Source of the DNA: a bacterium
GTDB taxonomy: Bacteria > Bacteroidota > Bacteroidia > Chitinophagales > Chitinophagaceae
Assembly: GCA_027364635.1 (NCBI GenBank)
Contig: DAHXOZ010000003.1
Span: 1-55,798 of the forward strand
Reading direction: 5' to 3'
DNA: 55,798 nucleotides
In this document: in pieces, positions 4,542-44,506 of the stretch
Numbering within the stretch: the stretch's first letter is position 1
How the letters are laid out: each line of letters starts with the position of its first letter
Translations under genes and position numbers: made by a program
Notes under the pieces: model-generated
Database searches by the model: none
What the model saw: only the letters and a program-made list of their open reading frames with translations
What the model was told of the DNA's origin: nothing

Positions 4542-5923
<1,382 letters not shown>

Positions 5924-38992: not shown

Positions 38993-39024
38993 AAAAAGCT
39001 TCCGGAATTACCCGGAAGCTTTTC
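38993..39024 (-). terminator. sRNA copy C intrinsic terminator
   Basis: Minus AAAAGCTTCCGG...CCGGAAGCTTTTT. Confidence 0.75.
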
Positions 39025-39253
39025 AGTAATTTAATCCTGGGGTTTCTTTGATTTTTCAGGCTTAAACTTTTTGCGAATTTTGAGGGTTAGTGTTCCTTTG
39101 GTTCGGTCTATCTAAAAATATTGGATATTAAAAGAAGTTGACTGATATCAGATTTTATATGGTTTTTCCGGGATTATTGGCAATTTTTTTCAATGGATAT
39201 GGTTCCCGATTTTTAACGGTAGATTAATGTTTGTTGAACATCAATCAACTTCT
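38993..39253 (-). ncRNA. Predicted ~261-nt small RNA, copy C of a three-member family
   Basis: TTG-N20-TATCTTTG promoter (39258-39288), 14-bp closing stem AGAAGTTGATTGAT/ATCAGTCAACTTCT, terminator at 38993-39024, no ORF. Confidence 0.75.
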
Positions 39254-39257
39254 GTAA

Positions 39258-39288
39258 CAAAGATAGAAACAGGGTGGGCGATCTGCAA
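39258..39288 (-). promoter_or_regulatory. sRNA copy C promoter TTG-N20-TATCTTTG
   Basis: Direct reading of minus strand. Confidence 0.7.
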
Positions 39289-39507
39289 TAGCATTAATGC
39301 TGATTTTTCTTATTAAGGAAATACGGTTGTAATTCGTAAAAACACGATTTGATATATAGAAATTTTACTTTTCCGGTTGAAGATTAAAAAAGAAAATTTG
39401 TGTAAATTCCCGGATAACAATAGAAAAATTAATAAATTTATAATCCCTCATCTATAATTTCTTATTCAAAAATATTTTAAATAAAAATCATAAAATCAAC
39501 AATATTT

Positions 39508-39702
39508 ATGGCCCAGTTTATCAAGGTTACCCAAAAAGATGGTATTGAAATATTAATAAATACCAACATCATTGAAACCATTTTTCCGGATCACACCTTG
39601 GCAAATTGTAATTCCCTGATCAATTTTACCAAGGCTTCTGCTAAAAAGAGTTTTTATGCCCGGCAAACTCTTGAAGAAATATGGAAAATGATATTGCAAT
39701 AA
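39508..39702 (+). CDS. 64-aa hypothetical protein, weakly FlbD/SwrD-like
   Basis: MAQFIKVTQKDGIEILINTNIIETIFPDHTLANCNSLINF pattern; intact ORF in a non-overlapped region. Confidence 0.55.
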   Translation: MAQFIKVTQKDGIEILINTNIIETIFPDHTLANCNSLINFTKASAKKSFYARQTLEEIWKMILQ

Positions 39703-39712
39703 ATAACCGGCC

Positions 39713-40210
39713 TTACCGGCTCAAACGGCTAATAATTTCTCTATGCTCCGGAAAGGCATTTAATAGATTTGTTTTATCTGCTATCTCAAAATCAGCAAAA
39801 TCAAATCCAGGGGCAACAGTACAACCGACAAGACTGAACGAACTTTCTACATCAGGTTCAGCAGCGAACCAGGACATTGCGGGCACGACAAACTGGAATG
39901 TTTCTTCCAAATAAATATTTGAACCAAGTTTTATGTAATAATATTTTCCTTTAGGTTCAATTACATGAATCAGCAATTTATCACCAGCATAAAAGTGCCA
40001 GCACTCTTCGCTTTTAATACGATGAAAAAGTGAATGCTCGCCCTGCCGTAATAAATAATAAATAGCAGTAGAAAAATTCCTTTCACCTTCAAAGCGTTTA
40101 GGCAAAGCTTCCGCAATAATCTTTTCTTCTGACCGGTAAGTTTCTTTAAAAAATCCTCCTTCAGGATGAGGCTGTAATTGAAGATGACTTATAAAATAGT
40201 TCGCATTCAT
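39713..40210 (-). CDS. Cupin (DUF985-type) protein
   Basis: LQPHPEGGFFKETYRS, SLFHRIKSEECWHFYAGDKLLIHVI. Confidence 0.92.
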   Translation of the reverse strand: MNANYFISHLQLQPHPEGGFFKETYRSEEKIIAEALPKRFEGERNFSTAIYYLLRQGEHSLFHRIKSEECWHFYAGDKLLIHVIEPKGKYYYIKLGSNIYLEETFQFVVPAMSWFAAEPDVESSFSLVGCTVAPGFDFADFEIADKTNLLNAFPEHREIISRLSR

Positions 40211-40260
40211 TTAGTTTGATTTTGCATTTGTGACCCTGACGATAAAATTCCAGCTAAATA

Positions 40261-41517
40261 TTAATAATCGGAAGGAAAAGTTTCGGGAACCTTTCTTCTG
40301 TCAACATGTAAAGCAAGCGGATGTAACGCTTTGGTTTCGTCAATAAAAATGAAAGCGTCATACCGTTGTGGAAGAAGAGATGGAACATAATTTCCATATT
40401 TTTCCATTGTCGGATCATATACTACTCCTATCGCCCGATGCCCTATTTTCTCAAAATATTCTTCAGGTATTTCATTGTTGAAAAGTAAATAACGGTCCTC
40501 ATCACTTTTATGATGTAAATGATATTCCACACTGCCTCTTTGTGCTTCCGGAACTTCCATCACCTCCATCGGGGCGCCCCATTCTGCCCCGGCAATTACA
40601 GTGCCCCGGTAGGTTGCGAAGCCAGCCAGGTAAACATTATTTTCGCCATATTCTTCTCTTGACAATTCACCGATATTTACCATTCCGGCTCTTGACATAC
40701 CTGTAGCTCTTGCATCCCCGATGTGGGTGTTGTGTTCCCAAACAATTCCTTTTGCATTTTTTCCATGGAATTTCATCAAGCGATTCAAAGTTTCCATCAT
40801 GTGGCGGTCGCGTATGTTCCAGCTTTCGTTATCAAACCCAATCATGGTACGATAATATTTTTCTGCATTTACCGCTATCAAAGCGTTTTGCTCTGTATTA
40901 AAACCGGCTTCGCGGTCGCCGTCCATAAATTGGGCTTTTACCCTTATCTCCTTTAAAAGCGCCAGCACTTCTTCGCTGCAGCCTGATTCTCTTAATGTAT
41001 AACGGGCATATTGTTGTTCGTTTTCATTAAAAGGCTCAAAACATTGAATCGCTTTTCTAACTGAGTTAGCAGCATTCGGATCTTCAGTTTCCAGGTAATG
41101 CATCATTGCTTTCATCGAATCCCAAAGACTGTAGACATCCAATCCGTAAAAGCCAACTTTTTTATCAATTGCAAGAGGCTGATTATGCTCTCTCAACCAT
41201 TCTGCAAGGCCTGCTACTTCCCAGTTTCCCCACATCCAGGTAGGCCAGCGGTCAAATGTTTTTAAAATATCTTCTATGGTATCTCCCGCATCTTTGTATC
41301 CCTTTATAAAACGGTTTATTTTATAACAATCAGGCCAGTCGCCTTCTACCGCTATAAAATTGAAGCCTTTTTCCTCTATCAATCTTTTTGAAATAGCCGC
41401 GCGCCATGTGTAGAATTCATGGGTACCATGCGAAGCTTCTCCCAACATTACAATAGGACGATCTCCGATATCGTCCAGCAGCGGATTCAAATCTCTTGAA
41501 TTATTTAATGGAAACAT
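40261..41517 (-). CDS. Erythromycin esterase family protein
   Basis: VMLGEASHGTHEFYTWR, FIAVEGDWPDCYKINRF, IVWEHNTHIGDARATGM. Confidence 0.94.
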   Translation of the reverse strand: MFPLNNSRDLNPLLDDIGDRPIVMLGEASHGTHEFYTWRAAISKRLIEEKGFNFIAVEGDWPDCYKINRFIKGYKDAGDTIEDILKTFDRWPTWMWGNWEVAGLAEWLREHNQPLAIDKKVGFYGLDVYSLWDSMKAMMHYLETEDPNAANSVRKAIQCFEPFNENEQQYARYTLRESGCSEEVLALLKEIRVKAQFMDGDREAGFNTEQNALIAVNAEKYYRTMIGFDNESWNIRDRHMMETLNRLMKFHGKNAKGIVWEHNTHIGDARATGMSRAGMVNIGELSREEYGENNVYLAGFATYRGTVIAGAEWGAPMEVMEVPEAQRGSVEYHLHHKSDEDRYLLFNNEIPEEYFEKIGHRAIGVVYDPTMEKYGNYVPSLLPQRYDAFIFIDETKALHPLALHVDRRKVPETFPSDY

Positions 41518-41649
41518 AACAAACTGTTTATGCTAAAAAGCCACAATTTACTTGCCAGAAGAAAGGTTTTTTGCTTTCTTTCCAAAATAAAAATTGCCAT
41601 TAAAAGTTGGTTTACTGTTATATAAAAAACTTGACGGAAATAAATTTTT

Positions 41650-42282
41650 ATGTACACAATTTGCTTACCTTTTATAAAAAAATTGAACACTTCACATTGG
41701 ATATTGATAGGATTGTGGATCGTTTATTACACACTTCATAGTGTATTTGCCTCAACAAGTGTAAAAATATTTTTCAAAAAATATTTAGAAAAACAGTTCC
41801 GGTATTACAGGTTGTGCTTTACGCTTTTTGCAACCTTTACACTGATTGGTTTATTGTATTTTCAATATTCTTTTTATAGTCCTGTTTTAATAAACTCATT
41901 GATTATAAAATATTTGTCTTTTGTTTTTCTCATCATACCAGGAAGTATAATTATGATGATTTCTTTGAAAAAATATTTCATGTTGCTGAGTGGAATAAAG
42001 TCGATATTTACACCTGTAGCCACTCCGGAATTGAAAACAGATGGTATTCACAGATTTGTCCGACATCCTTTATATTCAGGAACAATTCTTTTCGTTTCCG
42101 GCCTTTTTTTTATCTTACCTACACTCAGCAATTTGATTGATGTCTTGTTATTAATCTTATACATTTTAGTCGGAATTGTTTTTGAAGAAAAAAAATTAAA
42201 AAAAGAATTTGGAGCCGGTTACCTGGAGTATATGTCAAAAGTCCCGAAGTTGATACCCACTTTTCGAAAACAGGAAAAGTGA
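41650..42282 (+). CDS. Isoprenylcysteine carboxyl methyltransferase/NnrU-like membrane protein
   Basis: LKTDGIHRFVRHPLYSGTILFVSGLF ... EEKKLKKEFGAGYLEYMSKVPKLIP. Confidence 0.85.
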   Translation: MYTICLPFIKKLNTSHWILIGLWIVYYTLHSVFASTSVKIFFKKYLEKQFRYYRLCFTLFATFTLIGLLYFQYSFYSPVLINSLIIKYLSFVFLIIPGSIIMMISLKKYFMLLSGIKSIFTPVATPELKTDGIHRFVRHPLYSGTILFVSGLFFILPTLSNLIDVLLLILYILVGIVFEEKKLKKEFGAGYLEYMSKVPKLIPTFRKQEK

Positions 42283-42318
42283 GCTCATTACAAAATGAAA
42301 CAAAAGTATCTTTGAAAA

Positions 42319-43329
42319 ATGAAATACCAGTTAGGCGATACGGTTTTGATGTTGCATTCACAGGAAGAAGGCGAAATAGTGGAAATTATCAGTAAAGAAC
42401 TGGTAATGGTTGAAGTGAAAGGTGTTCAATTTCCTGTTTATACCGACCAGATCGATTTTCCTTATTTCAAACGATTTTCAGAAAAAAAGGTAGTAGTTCC
42501 CAAAAAAGAAAAGGTATATGTAGATAATTTAAAAAAAGAAACTGTTTCTGAAAAATATCATGTTCATACCGGAGTTTGGCTTTCTTTTCTTCCTGTTTGT
42601 GATAACGATATTTTTGATGATGATGTGGTAGAAAAATTTAAAATTTACCTGATCAATCAAACAAATGACACATATCATTTTTCGTACGAAATAAAATTTA
42701 AAGGATCTCCCGATTTTCATTTAAGCAATACAGCCTTACCTTTCAATGAATTTTATCTTCATGATATTCCATTCGAAGAAATGAATGATGCGCCAAAATT
42801 TGAATTTGATTTTGAATTGGCTACCAAAAACAAAAATAAAGTTGATCACTACGAAACGACGTTTAAAATAAAAGCAAAACAATTATTTAAAAAGATCGAA
42901 GAGATGAAATTGAAAAATGAGCCTACTTTTTCATTTCTGCTTTTTGACGATTATCCTGATAAAATTGATGAAGTAATTCCGGACTATTATAATTCCGGTG
43001 GTAAAATTTATAATATTTCTGAAGCACGTCAAAAACTGGAACCGGCGCGATCAGTTGTTGACCTCCATATTGAAAAATTAACTGATAATTGGAAAGGCTT
43101 GAGCAATTTTGAGATTCTTACAATCCAGTTAAGCAATTTTGAAAAGTATTATCAACTGGCGGTTGCGCACCATCAGCCAAATCTCATTGTAATTCATGGC
43201 GTTGGGACAGGCAAGCTTCGAAATGAAATTCATGAGATTTTAAAAACAAAAAAAGAAGTGAAAAGCTTCGCCAACCAGTACCATCAAAATTTCGGTTTTG
43301 GAGCTACCGAAATCTATTTTCAATATTAA
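42319..43329 (+). CDS. DUF2027-type protein with C-terminal Smr domain
   Basis: VVDLHIEKLTDNWKGLSNFEIL...LIVIHGVGTGKLRNEIHEIL Smr signature. Confidence 0.9.
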   Translation: MKYQLGDTVLMLHSQEEGEIVEIISKELVMVEVKGVQFPVYTDQIDFPYFKRFSEKKVVVPKKEKVYVDNLKKETVSEKYHVHTGVWLSFLPVCDNDIFDDDVVEKFKIYLINQTNDTYHFSYEIKFKGSPDFHLSNTALPFNEFYLHDIPFEEMNDAPKFEFDFELATKNKNKVDHYETTFKIKAKQLFKKIEEMKLKNEPTFSFLLFDDYPDKIDEVIPDYYNSGGKIYNISEARQKLEPARSVVDLHIEKLTDNWKGLSNFEILTIQLSNFEKYYQLAVAHHQPNLIVIHGVGTGKLRNEIHEILKTKKEVKSFANQYHQNFGFGATEIYFQY

Positions 43330-43360
43330 CCTGCAATAGAAAATCGTAACTTAGCAGATG

Positions 43361-43740
43361 CTGCAAACCGGGTTATCGTTCCAATGAAAATTGGGAAGGA
43401 AAGTCCGGACAGTATAGAGCAACACACCGGTTAATAGCCGGTCCTGATCCTGAGCTTGCCGAAGGGTTGCGAAGGGTCGGGAAGAAAGTGCCACAGAAAA
43501 TTACCGTCCGCCTCTGGCGGATAAGGGTGAAAACGTGAGGTAAGAGCTCACGATCGTTACAAGTAATTGTGACAATGGGTAAACCTTGTGTACTGCAATG
43601 CCACGTATATCAGCGTTTGAAGGCGGCTCGCCTGATGCTGAAGGGTAGGCAGCAAGATTGTTGCAGTAATGCAACAGCCAGATAAATGATAACCGTCCGC
43701 CGCCAGGCGGAATACAGAATCCGGCTTATAGGTTTGCAGT
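43361..43740 (+). ncRNA. rnpB: RNase P RNA (bacterial type A)
   Basis: P1 CTGCAAACC/GGTTTGCAG; conserved GGAAGGAAAGTCCGGACA, GTGCCACAGAAAATTACCG, GATAAGGGTGAAAACGTGAGGTAAGAGCTCAC, AGATAAATGATAACCGTC, ACAGAATCCGGCTTATAGG. Confidence 0.96.
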
Positions 43741-43754
43741 AAATGAATTGAAAG

Positions 43755-43779
43755 AGGCAGTCGAAACGGCTGCCTTTTT
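43755..43779 (+). terminator. rnpB intrinsic terminator
   Basis: AGGCAGTCG-AAA-CGGCTGCCTTTTT. Confidence 0.85.
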
Positions 43780-43824
43780 CTTTAGTAAACAAACAAATAA
43801 ACTATAAAATGATTTTCTTTAAAT

Positions 43825-43857
43825 AAAAAACTTCCGCTTTTTAGGCGAAAGTTTTTT
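43825..43857 (-). terminator. sRNA copy A intrinsic terminator
   Basis: Minus AAAAAACTTTCGC...GCGGAAGTTTTTT; the only non-Watson-Crick pair is U-G on minus (C/A mismatch on plus). Confidence 0.8.
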
Positions 43858-44083
43858 AATTTTTTAATCCTGTGGGTTGGTTTTCTCAAGGATAAATTTT
43901 AGAGGCTGGATTAAAGCCTGGTTTTCATCGGGATAAATATTTTTCTAAGGACTTGAATTCAAAAAAAATAGAAGTTGACTGATATCAGATTTTATTTTTG
44001 GTTTTTCCGGGATTAGTGGAAACTGATATTTTCAATGGATTTGGATTTTTTGATTAATGTTTGTTGAACATCAATCAACTTCT
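43825..44083 (-). ncRNA. Predicted ~259-nt small RNA, copy A (tandem pair)
   Basis: Promoter at 44088-44118, 14-bp closing stem spanning 43970-44083, terminator at 43825-43857, no ORF. Confidence 0.78.
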
Positions 44084-44087
44084 GGAA

Positions 44088-44118
44088 CAAAGATACACAG
44101 GCACTATTGGCTGTGCAA
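44088..44118 (-). promoter_or_regulatory. sRNA copy A promoter TTG-N20-TATCTTTG
   Basis: Direct reading of minus strand. Confidence 0.7.
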
Positions 44119-44214
44119 GCGCAGTATTGACTGTTTTTTAAACTACTGAATTTACTGTAGCAATCGTAGATTTACCTTCAATTACTTCGTTTATTTACTT
44201 GTTCTCTAAGTAAT

Positions 44215-44246
44215 AAAAAAGCTTCCGCATTTACAGCGGAAGCTTT
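44215..44246 (-). terminator. sRNA copy B intrinsic terminator
   Basis: Minus AAAGCTTCCGCTGTAAATGCGGAAGCTTTTTT, perfect 11-bp stem. Confidence 0.85.
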
Positions 44247-44471
44247 AATTTTTTAATCCTGTGGGTTGGTTTTCTCAAGGATAAATTTTAGAGGCTGGAT
44301 TAAAGCCTGGTTTTCATCGGGATAAATATTTTTCTAAGGACTTGAATTCAAAAAAAATAGAAGTTGACTGATATCAGATTTTATTTTTGGTTTTTCCGGG
44401 ATTAGTGGAAACTGATATTTTCAATGGATTTGGATTTTTGATTAATGTTTGTTGAACATCAATCAACTTCT
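44215..44471 (-). ncRNA. Predicted ~257-nt small RNA, copy B (tandem pair)
   Basis: Nearly identical to copy A body; promoter at 44476-44506; terminator at 44215-44246. Confidence 0.78.
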
Positions 44472-44475
44472 GGAA

Positions 44476-44506
44476 CAAAGATACACAGGCACCATTGGCG
44501 GTGCAA
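44476..44506 (-). promoter_or_regulatory. sRNA copy B promoter TTG-N20-TATCTTTG
   Basis: Direct reading of minus strand. Confidence 0.7.

Follow-up and report, generated by a model that had tools for sequence, protein, structure and literature searches.

A multicopy ~260-nucleotide RNA of Chitinophagaceae as a candidate sponge for a conserved small RNA

Introduction

CsrB/RsmZ and CrcZ are regulated RNAs in which many copies of one unpaired motif titrate a protein, and engineered microRNA sponges carry sites in tandem, each pairing to either side of a centre that stays unpaired. In Caulobacter, CrfA is an independent small RNA (sRNA) gene whose product sequesters the sibling sRNAs SisA-D via their mRNA-pairing region, and a characterised target of SisA is the mRNA of a TonB-dependent receptor (PMC12559287). 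RosA of B. subtilis and RsaI of S. aureus are stand-alone sponges with two G-rich regions and C-rich sRNAs as partners (PMC8216469), and the published sponges that we compared are single genes with at most two complementary regions (PMC12559287, PMC8216469). FopS of Bacteroides, a copy of which is found on a Bacteroides phage, blocks translation starts and is antagonised by a protein, RbpB (PMC11697453). Here we analyse a 55,798-nucleotide (nt) stretch of a Chitinophagaceae genome (GenBank assembly GCA_027364635.1, contig DAHXOZ010000003.1, positions 1–55,798; hereafter the window), which holds three copies, A, B and C, of a gene for a ~260-nt RNA. To our knowledge the small RNAs of this family of bacteria are almost undescribed, and our literature search returned no paper linking small RNAs with Chitinophagaceae and none containing the sequences of these RNAs that we searched for.

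We find that A, B and C probably encode a sponge RNA that titrates a multicopy sRNA of ~60 nt. We also lean towards a wider reading, a Chitinophagaceae-wide two-RNA system in which a multicopy sRNA with a 23-nt seed is controlled by a multicopy sponge with 3–10 centre-bulged sites, and in which a phage carries the sRNA. Both RNA families, their conservation, complementarity, co-occurrence and physical linkage were observed computationally.

Results

The ~260-nt RNAs repeat a motif antisense to a small RNA

An original prediction, made from the sequence of the window, had placed three copies of a small RNA on its minus strand. Reading of the minus strand and alignment of the copies gave the sequence, coordinates and strand just as described:

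43824–44083, minus strand: candidate sponge RNA copy A, ~260 nt, 5' end ~44083, covariance model match of 116 bits
44215–44471, minus strand: candidate sponge RNA copy B, ~257 nt, near-identical tandem duplicate of A, covariance model match of 120 bits
38993–39253, minus strand: candidate sponge RNA copy C, ~261 nt, diverged, covariance model match of 106 bits
44024–44048, minus strand: A predicted sponge site 1, duplex −17.7 kcal/mol
43999–44021, minus strand: A predicted sponge site 2, the 'core' of the original prediction, −17.9 kcal/mol
43938–43960, minus strand: A predicted sponge site 3, −15.9 kcal/mol
43919–43936, minus strand: A predicted sponge site 4, −14.1 kcal/mol
43878–43913, minus strand: A predicted sponge site 5, −18.9 kcal/mol
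44413–44437, minus strand: B predicted sponge site 1, −17.7 kcal/mol
44388–44410, minus strand: B predicted sponge site 2, −17.9 kcal/mol
44327–44349, minus strand: B predicted sponge site 3, −15.9 kcal/mol
44308–44325, minus strand: B predicted sponge site 4, −14.1 kcal/mol
44267–44302, minus strand: B predicted sponge site 5, −18.9 kcal/mol
39185–39203, minus strand: C predicted sponge site 1, −14.7 kcal/mol
39160–39181, minus strand: C predicted sponge site 2, the 'core', −20.0 kcal/mol
39104–39127, minus strand: C predicted sponge site 3, −19.9 kcal/mol

The 'core' and 'A-rich tail' that had been distinguished within each copy are both present, but they are not separate elements: each consists of repeats of a single motif, (A)UCC-N3-5-(A)UCC-N1-5-GAAAA(A)CC, which occurs 3–10 times per RNA and fills the unpaired parts between and after the stems. 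[ATG]TCC is found 5.8 times per unit versus 1.7 times in shuffles, and TCC-N-GAAAA 2.4 times versus 0.24. Motif density is 11 per kb in the transcripts compared to 2.6 in their downstream flanks, and each RNA has on average 9.9 TCC against 2.4 GGA. The sites turn over, their number and spacing varying between copies.

The motif had been defined before the partner was known, and the pattern ATCCN{1,5}GAAAAACCA was then searched in four whole genomes. Apart from the ~260-nt RNAs themselves and chance matches in coding sequence, the matches were mostly similar non-coding stretches, and the opposite strand of these holds ~60-nt genes with a promoter, a seed and a terminator. The repeat motif is antisense to the 5' end of this sRNA, GGUUUUUCAUAGGAUAUUGGAUU, in two blocks that flank an unpaired centre.

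We scored as a site any predicted duplex of −12 kcal/mol or lower in 79 complete ~260-nt transcripts. These hold 5.49 sites each for the real seed, compared to 2.10 for shuffled seeds and 0.39 on the antisense strand, and their summed pairing energy is 7436 with the real seed versus 2334±923 (maximum 4807) with shuffled ones. Random, window and composition-matched 260-nt segments have 0.81–0.92 sites each and at most 4. Five sites are predicted in A, five in B and three in C. The centre of the seed is left unmatched, with a perfect TAT in 0 of 59 three-base centres, and centre length ranges from 0 to 5 bases. Furthermore, full-length 1:1 folds that include the cost of unfolding both RNAs give a net gain of −13 to −18 kcal/mol, and the real seed beats 56–60 of 60 shuffled seeds in every pair tested. 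The sponge model predicts that binding to the sites would depend on the stretch GGUUUUUC of the sRNA.

A partner sRNA with an invariant 5' end

The sRNA gene reads as a -7-like box, GGTTTTTCATAGGATATTGGATT, then TTAAAACGGGGCTGGAT...ATCCGGGCCCC and T6. Its transcript is predicted to start at [N]GG-UUUUUCAU, and that of the ~260-nt RNA at AGAAG. The copies examined, drawn from many genera, all have the same 23-nt 5' end, whereas their terminator stems differ by compensatory changes. The -7-like box precedes the seed in 34 of 47 upstream regions, ending 4–5 nt upstream of it (a distance counted for the stricter form of the box), and 20 of these 34 have a TTG 18–22 nt further up.

We built covariance models of the ~260-nt RNA (R1) and of the sRNA (R2) and searched a sample of 200 Chitinophagaceae genomes from 101 genera, with E≤1e-10 as the stringent cut-off for R2. 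R2 matches 162 of the 200 genomes, and 133 at the stringent cut-off, with up to 14 copies; the window's genome has 7–8. No Rfam family matches the sRNA, and a phylum search with R2 returned only weak matches outside Chitinophagaceae. As candidate relatives we rejected these, those inspected being terminator look-alikes. The antisense of the sponge tail (window 43878–43942 and 44267–44331, plus strand) also matches R2 weakly, at 16 bits, as its complementarity with the sRNA predicts; an sRNA gene copied in inverted orientation may have been the origin of the tail.

We infer that the invariant 5' end is the mRNA-pairing region of the sRNA. Its complement contains UAUGAAAAACC, which resembles the start of a Bacteroidota gene, and on this likeness the sRNA may block translation starts, by analogy with FopS in Bacteroides.

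An intact copy of the sRNA, with the same 23-nt seed and its own terminator, lies at 5815–5837 of a 236-kb viral contig (IMGVR_UViG_3300037418_003161; L372), whose open reading frames (ORFs) include tail/baseplate-like and ribonucleotide-reductase-like ones (protein calls by eye). A BLAST search of known phages for the sRNA gave no match, and a pattern scan found no ~260-nt RNA on viral contigs. In two genomes where the ~260-nt RNA was undetected (G066, locus L361; G034, locus L364), the second block of the seed (TTGGATT) is lost or changed. These changes are a hint of co-evolution of the two RNAs.

The two RNAs co-occur and are sometimes linked

The original prediction spoke of a three-copy family and proposed a covariance-model search of Chitinophagaceae. 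The window's genome has in fact seven copies, of which A, B and C are three, and R1 finds the RNA in 69 of the 200 genomes and 36 of the 101 genera. It is present in 17 of the 19 other genomes of the window's genus that were searched, in 2–10 copies that are often tandem. Within the order, R1 matches are restricted to Chitinophagaceae, bar one borderline case. A pattern scan named Ginsengibacter, Ferruginibacter, Flavisolibacter, Flavihumibacter, Paraflavitalea, Flavitalea, Terrimonas, Cnuella, Puia, Niastella and other genera, all of which we take to be Chitinophagaceae. Where a terminator is recognisable, the transcript is ~260 nt in the window's genus and 300–360 nt (interquartile range) in other genera. 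In many genera one copy lies between a cystathionine beta-synthase (CBS)-like gene (PALP and CBS domains) and a periplasmic-binding-protein gene; the window's genome has this copy on contig C106. This locus looks like the ancestral site of the RNA.

All 69 genomes with the ~260-nt RNA have the sRNA at the stringent cut-off, compared to 64 of the 131 without it, and the mean number of sRNA copies is 7.3 in the former and 2.5 in the latter. At genus level the co-occurrence has p=7e-4. The two genes can also be neighbours: in five genomes, six sRNA genes share their strand with a ~260-nt RNA gene no more than 1 kb away (L157, L138, L089, G024:C1:3484164, G137:C469 and G204:C235). One of these genomes, G024 (5.1 Mb, with 9 and 5 copies), has two linked pairs, where simple arithmetic predicts ~0.02.

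Structure and promoter of the ~260-nt RNA

The further parts of the three copies are as follows:

44088–44118, minus strand: predicted promoter of A, TTG-N20-TATCTTTG (TTG 44116–44118, box 44088–44095)
44476–44506, minus strand: predicted promoter of B, TTG-N20-TATCTTTG (TTG 44504–44506, box 44476–44483)
39258–39288, minus strand: predicted promoter of C, TTG-N20-TATCTTTG (TTG 39286–39288, box 39258–39265)
44119–44200, minus strand: conserved, putatively regulatory region upstream of A, from position counts over 81 units
44070–44083, minus strand: A closing stem, 5' arm AGAAGTTGATTGAT
43970–43983, minus strand: A closing stem, 3' arm ATCAGTCAACTTCT
44052–44076, minus strand: A 5' hairpin GATTGATGTT/AACATTAATC, formed in place of the inner pairs of the closing stem, with compensatory changes
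43824–43860, minus strand: A intrinsic terminator
44215–44246, minus strand: B intrinsic terminator
38993–39024, minus strand: C intrinsic terminator
A ~43863–43875, B ~44252–44264, C ~39030–39042, minus strand: CAGGATTAAA directly before the terminator

A, B and C share one order of parts, all of which the original prediction had recognised: TTG-N20-TATCTTTG, a gap of 4 nt (TTCC or TTAC), AGAAGTTGATTGATGTTCAACAAACATTAATC, the core TAATCCCGGAAAAACC, ATCTGATATCAGTCAACTTCT, a tail ending in CAGGATTAAA and the terminator. A 14-bp closing stem, AGAAGTTGATTGAT...ATCAGTCAACTTCT, starts directly after the TTCC or TTAC. Missing from that description of the 5' part, where the stem itself was correct, was the hairpin GATTGATGTT/AACATTAATC that competes with it. 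Relative to dinucleotide shuffles, the three copies fold with z-scores of −5.4, −5.4 and −6.3. Their ORFs are all short (≤30 amino acids), with none conserved in the RNA or common to A, B and C.

Across the family, the closing stem AGAAGTTGATTGAT/ATCARTCAACTTCT is paired in more than 95% of alignment cells and shows little covariation because its sequence is nearly invariant. The 5' hairpin (GATTGAT.../...ATCAATC), whose 5' arm is also used by the closing stem, does covary. For the two helices combined, in an alignment that was itself fitted to the model, 47 cells are changed on both sides, versus 15.5 after shuffling and no more than 11 when the partners are slid. A subclass of the RNAs has TGAGG/CCTCA in place of the 5' hairpin. 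Since the closing stem and the 5' hairpin are partly exclusive, a conformational switch between them is possible, judging from the sequence.

The TTG-N20-TATCTTTG promoter is conserved over 81 units, and in the same units conservation extends upstream to about −100, with GTA...TAC elements, GTAAATNC, AAAA and an GCANTANTGC-like palindrome that adjoins the TTG, or −33 box. The sequence of this region suggests an array of binding sites for an activator. Genes for NarL/FixJ-type response regulators (Response_reg and GerE domains) lie beside a few copies (L163, L166, L102, L153 and L155), mostly divergently; they are only suggestive as regulators of the RNA, because such regulators are common and the loci perhaps amount to three independent ones. 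A genome search with the promoter pattern returned mostly ~260-nt RNA genes, with other matches near control level and therefore no clear wider regulon. Overall, the conserved promoter and terminator, the family-wide copies and the hairpin covariation bear out the view that these are independent small RNAs under selection.

The RNase P RNA gene adjoins A and B (window 43360–43744, plus strand), and the same arrangement is found again in another genome (G007, locus L043). Peripheral helices of this RNase P RNA hold palindromes (CCTGAGCTTGCCGAAGG, GTCCGCC...GGCGGA) resembling repetitive extragenic palindromes.

Discussion

We propose that each ~260-nt RNA has a promoter of its own, probably a regulated one, that a 14-bp stem closes the transcript and that it would present several unpaired AUCC...AUCC-N1-5-GAAAAACC sites. 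These sites would pair in two blocks, leaving the centre unpaired, with the GGUUUUUCAUAGGAUAUUGGAUU end of an sRNA encoded elsewhere in the genome. By occupying this pairing end the sponge would titrate the sRNA and relieve whatever it represses, which by analogy with FopS may be the translation of mRNAs paired near their start codons. The inferred parts of the model are transcription of both RNAs, an encounter between them in the cell, which way the effect runs and which mRNAs are targeted.

Several results weigh against this proposal. The support for transcription consists of predicted promoters and terminators. In 800 kb of Ginsengibacter, three approaches (a scan by energy, a test in fixed register with 300 permuted motifs as controls, and a scan of the whole strand) found no excess of start-codon targets for the sRNA, no enrichment of susC and no convincing targets. 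Copy C is weak when taken alone (three sites; p 0.05 against shuffled seeds). Sponging does not account for the near-invariant sequence of the closing stem, nor does pairing with the sRNA account for the CAGGATTAAA conserved before the terminator in many copies. The co-occurrence statistics ignore shared ancestry and, as about half of the sponge-free genomes have the sRNA, the sponge is dispensable to it.

The many copies of a short unpaired motif, in multiple genes, would also suit an RNA of the CsrB/RsmZ or CrcZ type whose motif binds a single-strand RNA-binding protein, with the sRNA as a ligand or antagonist of that protein, and the regulated promoter with its upstream elements and occasional NarL/FixJ neighbours resembles the GacA-RsmZ layout. 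However, a conserved complementary RNA seed explains the motif in detail, the motif is not GGA in a loop as for CsrA, and a search of the window's 85% complete genome found no RbpB-like RRM_1 protein (Hfq and CsrA lay outside that search); we regard protein titration as unlikely. Because pairing gives no direction, the roles could instead be reversed, the ~260-nt RNA being a multi-seed trans-acting regulator of mRNAs that the sRNA controls. Its own promoters in many copies, and conservation of the stem sequence and of CAGGATTAAA beyond what sponging needs, would fit such a regulator, whereas site turnover with variable number and spacing is what is expected of decoys, and the sRNA is both more widespread and more conserved than the ~260-nt RNA. 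This reversal is a doubtful alternative.

Two further explanations have much less in their favour. A passenger or mobile repeat without RNA function would account for multiple, sometimes tandem copies at many different locations, but the loops have diverged around a conserved promoter, terminator, stem and motif, the 5' hairpin covaries and the copy at the CBS-like/periplasmic-binding-protein locus is syntenic across genera. The original prediction had itself raised a transposon or protein gene as an alternative; there is no conserved ORF and no transposase among the recurrent neighbour families, and we consider a passenger very improbable. It had also entertained a 6S-type function (6S RNA binds RNA polymerase), while correctly recognising no named Rfam family: a search of Rfam 15 at E≤10 gave only chance matches and the neighbouring RNase P RNA. 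A large unpaired region enclosed by a long stem is in keeping with a 6S RNA, as is the lack of a 6S-Flavo match in these genomes; but none was found in any control genome either, and so that search says nothing about a separate 6S RNA. There is no match to RF00013, RF01685 or any other 6S family at E≤10, the large interior has no consensus apical stem and thus no rod with a central bubble, and the RNA occurs in 2–10 copies per genome with unpaired parts that are repeatedly antisense to another sRNA. A 6S role is therefore scarcely credible.

If the sponge reading is right, the number of sites and the number of gene copies would tune titration capacity. The analysis also supplies two new RNA families with which hundreds of genomes can be annotated. 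Sponging as a principle is known; what appears to be new is the site array, the number of copies and both families of RNA, and in the literature that we compared we found no multicopy gene with a natural array of as many as ten sites. CrfA is functionally the closest system, likewise a sponge for sibling sRNAs, though we saw no sequence relation between the two; it is a single gene that works through Hfq, whereas in the window's genus the candidate sponge is encoded by 2–10 genes per genome, and 3–10 sites are predicted in each RNA. RosA and RsaI share with the ~260-nt RNA the repetition of sites in a stand-alone sponge, but theirs are two sites with G-rich/C-rich pairing rather than an array of sites that pair in two blocks and leave the centre free. 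The partner sRNA is, by description, much like FopS in its length (~60 nt), its 1–14 copies, its 5' seed, its own terminator and its copy on a phage contig. FopS is a multicopy RNA of ~65–70 nt in Bacteroidaceae and has the protein RbpB as its antagonist, whereas this sRNA belongs to Chitinophagaceae and its candidate antagonist is an RNA. CsrB/RsmZ and CrcZ, in contrast, titrate proteins, and the motif of the ~260-nt RNA is antisense to an RNA. Engineered microRNA sponges share the tandem sites with an unpaired centre, although the ~260-nt RNA is natural, bacterial and acts, if at all, with no Argonaute; with its decoy sites arrayed in many gene copies and a very widespread sRNA family as partner, it would be their natural equivalent in bacteria.

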